Shown: positions 35,101-37,360 of the stretch, one piece after another
Layout: each line of letters opens with the position of its first letter
Position numbering within the stretch: position 1 is the stretch's first letter
Translations under genes and position numbers: made by a program
NCBI GenBank assembly: GCA_023105745.1
Contig: JALGQZ010000008.1
Span: 47,551,618-47,615,617, forward strand
DNA: 64,000 nucleotides
Direction: 5' to 3'
From: Austropuccinia psidii
Taxonomy: Eukaryota; Basidiomycota; Pucciniomycetes; Pucciniales; Sphaerophragmiaceae
The notes under the pieces: model-generated
The model's database searches: none
What the model was told of the DNA's origin: nothing
The model's input: the letters and a program-made list of their open reading frames with translations, nothing else

Positions 35101-36906
35101 AAATTCTGACATGTCAGGATATAATGCTGTTAATCTGTCCTTTTGTTGGCAAAACCATGGTAAAGCTTTGTCTTTATCAGCATTAAATTTGGCAGATTCA
35201 AAGGCTGTTTAAACTTTAAACCTCCAAGCATCATTTGCCCATTTGTTGATGATTTGGGTTTTCCACCAAGTCCAACTCTGGTGTCCATGTGCTTGTCTTA
35301 TTTTGATGTACCATCTGTGAGCTGATCTGGCAAACAAGGTGTTAAACCTGGCTGTTACCAATCTGTCTGGTAATTCAAAATCTTCTTTGATCATGTCAAT
35401 ACCTCTAATGAATTCCATATGGTCATACTCTCCTTCACCATTGAAGTGAGGCCATTCTTTAAGTTTTGGAACTTCTTTCAAGAGTGCTTGGCCCATTGAT
35501 GGTTCCAAGTTATGAAAAGAAGTGGATAATTTATTTTTTAATTGTGAATTATCAGGATCCAATACTTGTGGATTTGAAATTCTTGTGCCCTCATTTTGAT
35601 TTAGAGGTGTAGACATTCTTGGTAAGGTGTTCAGTATTTGTTCAATGTCATTCATTTTACTGTTGCTACACCTTTGGGAATTTCTGTATTCATGTTGAAA
35701 GCTTTGTATTAAATTTATTATTTCAATTTTATACATGTCTTCCTTATGTGTCAGTTCTTGCCATAACTCTGTCTGTCTTGTATTATCAGAAGTGACTTGG
35801 TTCAATTTCATTGATAATTTTGATACTTCTTCTTGTGAAGCATCAAAACACTTTTTCAAGGCAATGGTATATGTCTTTACTTCAGTAAATGAATTTGAAA
35901 TGTCATCAAGGACTTTCTTGTTATCTGTTTTGATAATATTTATGGCTTGTTTAATTCTTGTTTCAATCATGTCATCAATATTGAATTTAGAATATTTATC
36001 TGTTAATTCTTTAATAATGGCAGATTGTTCATTTATTTTAATGTTAGAAGAATTGTCATTATTAGAATTTTTAATTGTTCTTAAAACTTTTTCAAAACAC
36101 ATAAGTGTTTCATTAATTTGGCACAGACTCAGGTTGTTTGTTTTAATGTTGTTACAAATGGTTTCATTTTTATCAGAAAGATGTTTTTTCACGTCATTTA
36201 TAGCATTATACAACTCTGGGATGGAATCAAATATGTCAGAAATCATTTCTGGAACCTTAATCTGGCTTCCTCCTTCTTCTGTAATTCCATCATGGTTCTG
36301 GCCATCTGAAATACATTCTCCATGGCATCCTGCTGAATCTTTGGGATTCTGTAGCCCTGGCTGTAAGGTTTTGGGGCTGGTGCCTTCCCTTTGCCCTTGT
36401 TTGGAGCTTGTGGCTGCTTTTTCACGTTGGAATTGCTGCTGCTGGCCACTGGGGCTGTTTTTGGCACTGGTTTTGGTGGTGGAGGGTTGTTTTTCCTCCA
36501 TTCTAGTGTCAAAAGCATCATGTTTTTCTTCTCCATCAATGGATGCCATCCATTGAGCAATTTGCAAGTGTTGGGATGGCCCAAGAATTTTCTTACTGTC
36601 AGGTAAGAATTCATGCAATTCTTCCACAGGTCTGCAAGGATCTGGTACTCCTTGAATTGAAGTGCATTGTTGTATGCACTGTGCCTGGCTTTGTATATGT
36701 CCACAGAGGCTTGTTGTGGCGGTGTCAGCTCTTTTTGAAGGTAAAATAGTATTATCAGCTTCAGAATGACCCAATTTAGTTGTTTGGAAGTCATCAACTG
36801 ACCCTTTTCCTTCTGTACCTGGTTGGCTTCTGCCATAATCACGTCTATTACCTTTTTGGGAGCTGCTTGAGGGGTTGTAGCTGGCTCCTGACCTGGTTGA
36901 AGGCAT
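29141..36906 (-). pseudogene. Element A pol-frame polyprotein (PR-RT-RNase H-IN), interrupted
   Basis: One frame runs from ATG at 36906 (MPSTRSGASYN) to the stop at 29141, apart from a TAA at 35209-35211 and the solo LTR. Leaving out the 1841 bases of LTR plus duplication restores the frame exactly. The first ~220 codons overlap gag in another frame. Then come a coiled-coil-like region, the WPHFNGEGEYDHMEF segment, a CCHC knuckle (CHICQSTTHLANTC), protease LDPGAFC, RT with YIDD, RNase H, the integrase HHCC finger (HDSPFSGH, CKTC) and core (MDWVTG, ISERDPKF, GLAERMIQ), and a basic chromodomain-like tail. The pentamer CTTTC flanks the inserted LTR. Changed protease and integrase residues mean it would be inactive even without the breaks. 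Confidence 0.92.
32521..34366 (-). mobile_element. Solo family-A LTR inside element A pol
   Basis: A single LTR (32526-34361, 1836 bp) lies between identical pentamers CTTTC (32521-32525 and 34362-34366). It splits the polyprotein just after the protease, and the protein continues in the same frame on the other side. It differs from the two outer LTRs by more than they differ from each other, including small indels, so it came from a separate later insertion reduced to a solo LTR by recombination between its ends. Confidence 0.95.
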
Positions 36907-37154
36907 AATTATGGTTAAAAAAGGTTTAAAATAGTATTTTTACGTCAAAAACTTACTATTGGCCAAATTTTTAGCTTTCTGAAGGGTATTACTTATGTCC
37001 AAGTTAATTAATTCAGAAGATATTGGTTCAGGCTGGTTATTTTGAGTCACAATAACAGTGCTATTATGATCAGAATTAACAGTACTGGCAGGGATAATGC
37101 TGGTTACTGTTGAGGCTGTTTCAATGTTTTCTTGTCTTACCACGTTGTCAGACA
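36243..37154 (-). CDS. Element A Gag, predicted spliced from three exons
   Basis: Predicted exons, read on the minus strand, are 37154-36957, 36892-36803 and 36730-36243. Intron 1 (64 nt) has donor GTAAGT and acceptor CAACCAG; intron 2 (72 nt) has donor GTCAGT, CTGAT and acceptor AAAAAG. Both introns are phase 1. The joined frame contains the conserved block QQASVDIYKARH, SYLTVRKFLG and LLNGW, a Lys/Pro-rich linker, and YRIPKIQQDAMENVFQMART. The same blocks and intron positions occur in element B. Gag proteins coat RNA and build the particle; no zinc knuckle is in this part, it sits in the pol frame. Left unspliced, intron 2 would encode a hydrophobic stretch (LNWVILKLIILFYL), odd for Gag. 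The first exon starts at an acceptor (TTTTAG|TGTCTGAC); its upstream partner and the start codon are not identified. Splicing is predicted, not shown. Confidence 0.6.
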
Positions 37155-37360
37155 CTAAAATTAATGAAAAAGCCAATTAATTAAGTAAAAAAAAGGTTAT
37201 TTCAAAAAAGAAATAAAAATATAAGCCTCACTTATAATATGAAAAAAAGTTATTTTTTATGGATTTTTTGAATTATAAGTATTTTTTATATGTTTTTAAA
37301 TTTTTCAATATAAGAAAAAAGATTTAAAAAGAGTAAAAAAAATATGTCACAGGTAAAATA
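36907..37360 (-). other. Leader region of element A
   Basis: Between the primer-binding site and the pol-frame ATG lie an AT-rich stretch and the predicted leader exon (37154-36957), which is open as SDNVVRQENIETASTV onward. Intron 1 begins at 36956. A possible upstream donor (A|GTGAGG, near 37226) would create ATG across the junction with the leader exon; this is speculative. Confidence 0.45.

Follow-up and report, generated by a model that had tools for sequence, protein, structure and literature searches.

A 64,000-nucleotide stretch of the Austropuccinia psidii genome (the window; G000:C8:47551618-47615617, in a genome of 1.015 Gb) carries on its minus strand a Ty3/gypsy long terminal repeat (LTR) retrotransposon, Element A, whose RNA contains three introns. 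Their removal generates a second open reading frame (ORF), termed ORF1, that is overprinted on the N-terminal part of Gag-Pol, and the start codon of ORF1 is itself assembled by splicing. Processed genomic copies of the element show that all three introns are spliced out in vivo, and the pattern of codon divergence among copies shows that ORF1, read in its spliced frame, is under purifying selection. The complete reading, in which a spliced ORF1 with three introns and a split ATG is overprinted on Gag-Pol and has an accessory role, is very probably correct; what ORF1 may do for the element is put forward more tentatively.

The three introns and their traces in processed copies

The most upstream of the three, the leader intron (77 nt, GTGAGG...TTTTAG, 37155..37231, minus strand like all features of Element A), separates an A at 37232 from a TG at 37154, and its loss joins the two into the ATG of ORF1: at the junction, ATTATAA|GTGAGG...TTTTAG|TGTCTGAC becomes ATTATAATGTCTGAC once the intron is removed, where unspliced RNA has GTG in place of the start codon. 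Exon 2 (36957..37154), which is the first coding exon if the A of the ATG is disregarded, is followed by intron 1 (64 nt, GTAAGT...CAACCAG, 36893..36956), which contains both the ATG of Gag-Pol (36904..36906) and an in-frame TAA that, without splicing, ends the ORF1 frame after 71 codons. Exon 3 (36803..36892) already overlaps the Gag-Pol frame. It is followed by intron 2 (72 nt, GTCAGT...AAAAAG, 36731..36802), which is in frame and takes 24 codons out of ORF1 when removed, and by exon 4 (36243..36730), which encodes the core helical and basic region and includes the stop. The product of the spliced RNA is 258 amino acids long and is read in another frame than the Gag-Pol that it overlaps. Because unspliced Element A has no ATG between a leader ATG at 37966 and that at 36906, Gag-Pol would be the natural product of the unspliced RNA.

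An initial annotation of this DNA had placed the donor A|GTAAGT at 36957/36956, the acceptor CAACCAG ending at 36893 with the ATG (36906-36904) inside that intron, and a removable 72-nt stretch at 36802-36731. All of these coordinates are correct, the 72-nt stretch is in frame, and the other frame (36908-36243, 221 codons) indeed lacks an ATG near its start. What had escaped it is the additional upstream leader intron (37231-37155), with which the ORF1 ATG is created.

Spliced retroelement RNA is occasionally reverse transcribed and then leaves intron-free copies in the genome. A pattern spanning the joined intron 1 junction, allowing at most 3 mismatches, was searched over the whole 1.015-Gb genome with the reversed pattern as a control. 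The junction pattern gave two matches and the control none, which, with one match being exact, is more than chance would yield. The exact match (0 mismatches) is L031, a real element, and the other, L032, was rejected as a processed copy, being an unrelated match with 3 mismatches. Within the part of L031 that was aligned to the window (37745-36234), just three deletions exceed 1 nt; they are 77, 64 and 72 nt long, each GT...AG, and lie at 37231-37155, 36956-36893 and 36803/36802-36732/36731, the last having been set one base to the left by the aligner in an equivalent placement. Furthermore, L031 carries both LTRs (12 mismatches in 1811 aligned positions), the same primer binding site as the element in the window, and a target-site duplication (TSD), AGGAA.

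The intron 2 junction pattern, with the same limit of 3 mismatches, has a single match in 1 Gb, again at L031; this limit would miss divergent subfamilies, and the intron 1 pattern likewise missed a further processed copy, L044. The leader-junction pattern, also at no more than 3 mismatches, has 4,133 matches genome-wide and none for the control; among the matches listed, most are intact or mutated acceptors, and the exact ones are L031 and L036. L036, flanked by the TSD GAATC, has lost just the leader intron, with introns 1 and 2 still in place (the join was read by eye, the aligner having placed the same gap about 10 nt off). L044, a 2-mismatch match, is without exactly the same three stretches as L031, and its identity to Element A is 83% in the multiple alignment and 86% pairwise. 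The joined start codon reads ATG in L031 and L036. These alignments covered the 5' part of the elements, within 37800-36000. On the evidence of L031 and L044, both splice junctions of the initial annotation are borne out, as is its claim that splicing removes the ATG of the long frame and switches to the other frame. L036 (G000:C2:75783532) also differs in the region of the primer binding site (GGGGCCCCGTCGGGA).

Selection on ORF1 and conservation of its splice signals

Codon-position divergence and the normalised ratio of nonsynonymous to synonymous change (N/S) were determined against Element A in 18 of 29 diverse loci (L036-L064). L031 lies outside this set, as do 11 of the 13 loci of a degenerate cluster at 28-32.5 Mb of C2, from which L052 and L053 were kept; L042, 99% identical to Element A, adds little. 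Since the copies are mutually related and many are decayed, the N/S figures give direction and not rates. Exon 2 precedes the Gag-Pol ATG, and no other long ORF makes use of it; its divergence at codon positions 1, 2 and 3 is 5.9, 6.4 and 30.3%, and its N/S is 0.15 in the ORF1 frame compared to 4.7 and 4.6 in the other two. For exon 4, where the corresponding divergences are 10.6, 10.2 and 23.9%, N/S is 0.30 for ORF1, 2.45 for Gag-Pol and 2.98 for the third frame, with ratios of observed to expected stops of 0.69, 0.50 and 1.24, respectively. Because of these N/S and stop ratios, ORF1 is seen to bear the amino-acid selection in the overlap, with Gag-Pol mainly kept open; downstream of the overlap, where Gag-Pol alone is read, its frame is conserved (N/S 0.53). 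Judged by these comparisons of sequence, ORF1 is the conserved product of the overlap, and the Gag-Pol frame is kept open there but is fairly free in sequence.

A set of 30 young copies has 6, 15 and 32 variable ORF1 sites at codon positions 1, 2 and 3. Not a single gap column falls in exons 2-4 or introns 1-2 of these copies, compared to 47 in the 466 nt of U5, leader and leader intron, and variable sites amount to 18-20% in U5, leader and leader intron (with gaps) versus 2-8% in exons 2-4 (ungapped).

Conservation of the splice signals was scored in 16 copies, the 18-copy set minus the processed L036 and L044. At five splice sites, GT or AG is kept in 151 of 160 dinucleotide cells, where the other positions of the leader intron average 82% identity and those of intron 1 average 79%. 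Acceptor 0, that of the leader intron, does not enter this count, as the search pattern is biased towards copies that have lost it; it is kept as AG in 10 of the 16. The initial annotation had suggested an alignment of genomic copies as a test of whether both the splice sites and the ATG of the long frame are conserved; the splice dinucleotides are, and the ATG is only in part, as discussed below.

Two groups of copies depart from this arrangement. In several copies (L037, L038, L040, L061 and L064), TTTTAG|TG is replaced by TTTTAATG, a change that destroys the leader acceptor and creates a genomic ATG at which ORF1 could start even if the leader were not spliced. Copies of this kind were favoured by the search pattern. 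The second group, L046-L058, comprises 13 related copies within 4.4 Mb of one contig (G000:C2:28.1-32.5 Mb), with identities of 83-99% (median 94%), and is perhaps a segmental or pericentromeric amplification. Acceptor 1 is altered (CAG to CAC or CAA) in 12 of these 13, and the Gag-Pol ATG is gone in 7.

Elements A and B and the annotated gene models

The closest proteins to those of the window are from A. psidii MF-1. Element A is bounded by a 5' LTR (37380..39208; 1829 nt, TG...CA) and a 3' LTR (27289..29117) that differ by 12 mismatches in 1829 positions, and the TSD AAATC flanks it on both sides. A putative primer binding site, TGGGGGCCCAGCCGTGA, read from the sequence, lies directly after the LTR (37361..37377). 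The first part of Gag-Pol (34357..36906) comprises the open N-terminal extension over ORF1, a predicted coiled coil, taken from the model of a relative, a capsid-like block and a CCHC motif; in this copy it is interrupted by an in-frame TAA at 35211-35209. A nested solo LTR of the same family (32526..34361, TSD GAAAG) breaks Gag-Pol, and the remainder (29141..32520) has Pfam matches to reverse transcriptase, RNase H and the zinc-binding and core domains of integrase, followed by an SH3-like end. The order in the corresponding protein, P0004, is RVT_1, RT_RNaseH, Integrase_H2C2 and rve, that is reverse transcriptase, RNase H, integrase; the rve match (E 1.5e-6) is under its curated cut-off and the other three are above theirs. 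This domain order, together with TG...CA LTRs and a short TSD, indicates that Element A belongs to Ty3/gypsy. The sequence TATAAAAG at 38003 suggests an R-U5 of about 600 nt (38003-37380), which is very long, and one short upstream ORF of 9 amino acids begins there, at the ATG at 37966.

A second element of the window, Element B, is on the plus strand, with an LTR read by eye at 40839-42973. Its leader intron (43406..43461, 56 nt), predicted by homology, splits the ATG as in Element A (A43405 and TG43462). Intron 1 (43579..43640, 62 nt) contains the Gag-Pol ATG at 43627 and has the same phase as in A, and intron 2 (43776..43841, 66 nt) contains a TGA in the ORF1 frame, because of which this copy cannot make ORF1 from unspliced RNA. 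Thus, Element B shares with A the three splice signals, their phases, the split ATG and an open spliced ORF1. Over ORF1 exon 4, whose homologous part in B is 43842..44398, 62 of 161 residues are identical between the two elements and codon-position identity is 57, 59 and 34%; Gag-Pol over the overlap has 60 of 209 identical residues in a gappy alignment. This copy of Element B (43621-45075) has frame shifts near 44340-44385 and 44750, and because of them its ORF1 frame runs on into the Gag-Pol coiled-coil region, to 44755.

The GenBank gene models of strain MF-1 include pieces of these elements: the listed O181_ proteins are parts of ORF1 or Gag-Pol, and such pieces account for a few hundred or more of the 'hypothetical proteins' annotated in A. 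psidii. By text pattern, intron 1 is joined in 14 of the 120 models listed and intron 2 in 15, and 11 start directly after the leader acceptor. The B-type model P0238 joins both intron 1 and intron 2 of Element B, and gene models read PVPK|DLNHFQQ across the intron 2 junction of that element. A few O181_ proteins are named 'No apical meristem-associated', a name that Pfam did not support for P0012.

The role of ORF1 and its relation to known systems

Element A-type families would make two kinds of RNA. Unspliced RNA would be the genome and would also yield Gag-Pol, with translation beginning at the ATG at 36906. In spliced RNA, removal of the leader intron builds the ORF1 start codon (A|TG at 37232/37154), removal of intron 1 deletes the Gag-Pol ATG and brings in the other frame, and removal of intron 2 shortens ORF1 by its 24 codons. 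Because the leader intron begins after the primer binding site, spliced RNA retains that site and is open to copying, as the processed copies attest; since just three of them are recognised, it is probably mainly a messenger. ORF1 itself is most likely an accessory protein that acts on the element's own RNA, by analogy with CERV of the Ty3/gypsy element Cer1. It may, more speculatively, help unspliced RNA to leave the nucleus or to be packaged, like CERV.

The initial annotation had taken the spliced product for Gag and the unspliced one for Pol. The switch exists, but its partners are ORF1 and Gag-Pol: the long frame from the ATG at 36906 holds the coiled coil, a W-rich capsid-like block and a CCHC motif (found in P0003, with Pfam knuckle matches that are weak and under cut-off), and what was called the Gag frame most probably does not encode Gag. 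The capsid reading was made by eye and from the database names 'Retrotransposon gag domain' (P0174, P0285), the Gag-Pol frame having no Retrotrans_gag match in Pfam. ORF1, for its part, has no CCHC, no Pfam family above its cut-off and no match among PDB sequences or in BFVD. Its predicted model, of low confidence, is helical, and suggests a Ser/Thr/Asn-rich N-terminal part, a helical core, a basic Pro/Lys-rich stretch and a C-terminal helix.

The main rival to an accessory role is a structural one, in which ORF1 would be a Gag or matrix-like protein supplied by spliced RNA in excess over Gag-Pol, as in EVADE and BARE1, where splicing makes a short GAG according to the available text of PMC12786077. 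The low-confidence helical model with its basic stretch would suit such a protein, and since Gag-Pol is in one frame, an extra structural protein would need some route. Yet the CCHC motif and the capsid-like block sit in the unspliced frame, which is not that of ORF1, and no Gag family or fold was found for ORF1, though models this weak exclude little; we consider a structural role unlikely. Far less probable is that splicing is real but ORF1 a useless by-product, with the introns reflecting damage or control by host splicing. Processed copies do seem rare at three, although more may exist (12 of the listed best of the 4,133 leader-junction matches stand at 3 mismatches), but neither the strong codon periodicity of exon 2, which is part of no other long frame, nor the same architecture in the divergent Element B would be expected of a by-product. 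Initiation of ORF1 on unspliced RNA, at a non-ATG codon or by shunting, could be imagined from the GTG at the ATG position and is highly improbable, in view of the TAA in intron 1 and of the loss of the leader intron from L031, L044 and L036. It is scarcely credible that deletion by chance or faulty assembly produced the processed copies, although each is a single locus in one assembly. Two of them, about 14% apart, each combine three exact GT...AG deletions, L031 has a TSD and both LTRs, and with related copies and Element B carrying the introns, their absence is most simply the derived state.

Several observations weigh against an overprinted ORF1 with an accessory role. The known processed copies number just three; removal of one intron is not always accompanied by removal of the others, as L036 demonstrates, and the joined start codon of L044 reads ATT, this copy having since lost it. 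Mean identity of exon 2 in the 16 copies (84%) is little above that of the introns (79-82%), and because of this the coding evidence is the codon pattern and not overall conservation. The Gag-Pol ATG is kept in only 11 of these 16 diverse intron-bearing copies. Of the 120 MF-1 models, which may be ab initio predictions, 44 keep intron 2, which is in frame also in Element A, and 61 match neither text pattern. Finally, the role of ORF1 rests on analogy, there being no family, solved structure or confident fold.

Protein production from spliced retroelement RNA has several forms. Rev of complex retroviruses is made from spliced RNA in overlapping frames, the structural proteins coming from unspliced RNA. 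The plant Ty3/gypsy element Ogre has an extra ORF ahead of gag and an intron between protease and reverse transcriptase. Element A differs from the first in position and introns, its likeness to Rev being one without shown homology or function, and from the second in having three introns, in the leader and the 5' ORF, that switch the frame. Rev is mentioned in the available part of PMC3315495, and splicing in LTR elements is already known from Ogre, EVADE and BARE1 (PMC12786077) and from Cer1 (PMC10309623). As far as the text of PMC12786077 extends, Ogre resembles Element A in its spliced transcripts, and the Ty1/copia elements EVADE and BARE1 in that spliced and unspliced RNAs give different products; the difference is that their splicing makes a short GAG and here it makes another protein. 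Searches of open-licence papers, in the portions available (including PMC8063080, PMC2864245 and PMC12210899), turned up no description of such an arrangement in any fungal element, nor of a split start codon in such an LTR element.

The statement in the initial annotation that no Ty3/gypsy element is known with such a switch needs qualification, as a related precedent exists. Cer1 of Caenorhabditis elegans makes CERV, which is needed for export of the unspliced RNA, from spliced mRNA, and like Element A it has a single Gag-Pol ORF in unspliced RNA and derives from the spliced mRNA a separate protein partly outside the gag frame, as described in the available text of PMC10309623 and PMC3315495. 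ORF1 differs in being wholly in the 5' part, never in the Gag-Pol frame, and in having its ATG split by an intron. Judged by processed copies and selection, it appears CERV-like in that it derives from spliced RNA and its frame is not that of Gag, in the sense of working like CERV and not of membership in its family, as it is the mode of production that is compared and not the sequences.

Element A is thus a well-supported fungal Ty3/gypsy case in which splicing yields a second, overprinted protein whose start codon is itself assembled by splicing. Transposable elements, mainly Gypsy, make up over 90% of the A. psidii genome according to the accessible part of PMC8063080, and RNA export and sorting by such elements become testable in an organism of this kind. 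It is possible, if doubtful, that ORF1, overprinted on gag-pol, is a Rev/CERV-like regulator made from fully spliced RNA, its start codon coming into being only through splicing; if true, a family abundant in a fungal genome of 1 Gb would have a splicing-timed early/late switch that arose independently of retroviruses and of Cer1. With Element A, fungi would join nematodes and retroviruses among the systems in which a protein is produced exclusively from the spliced RNA of an element.
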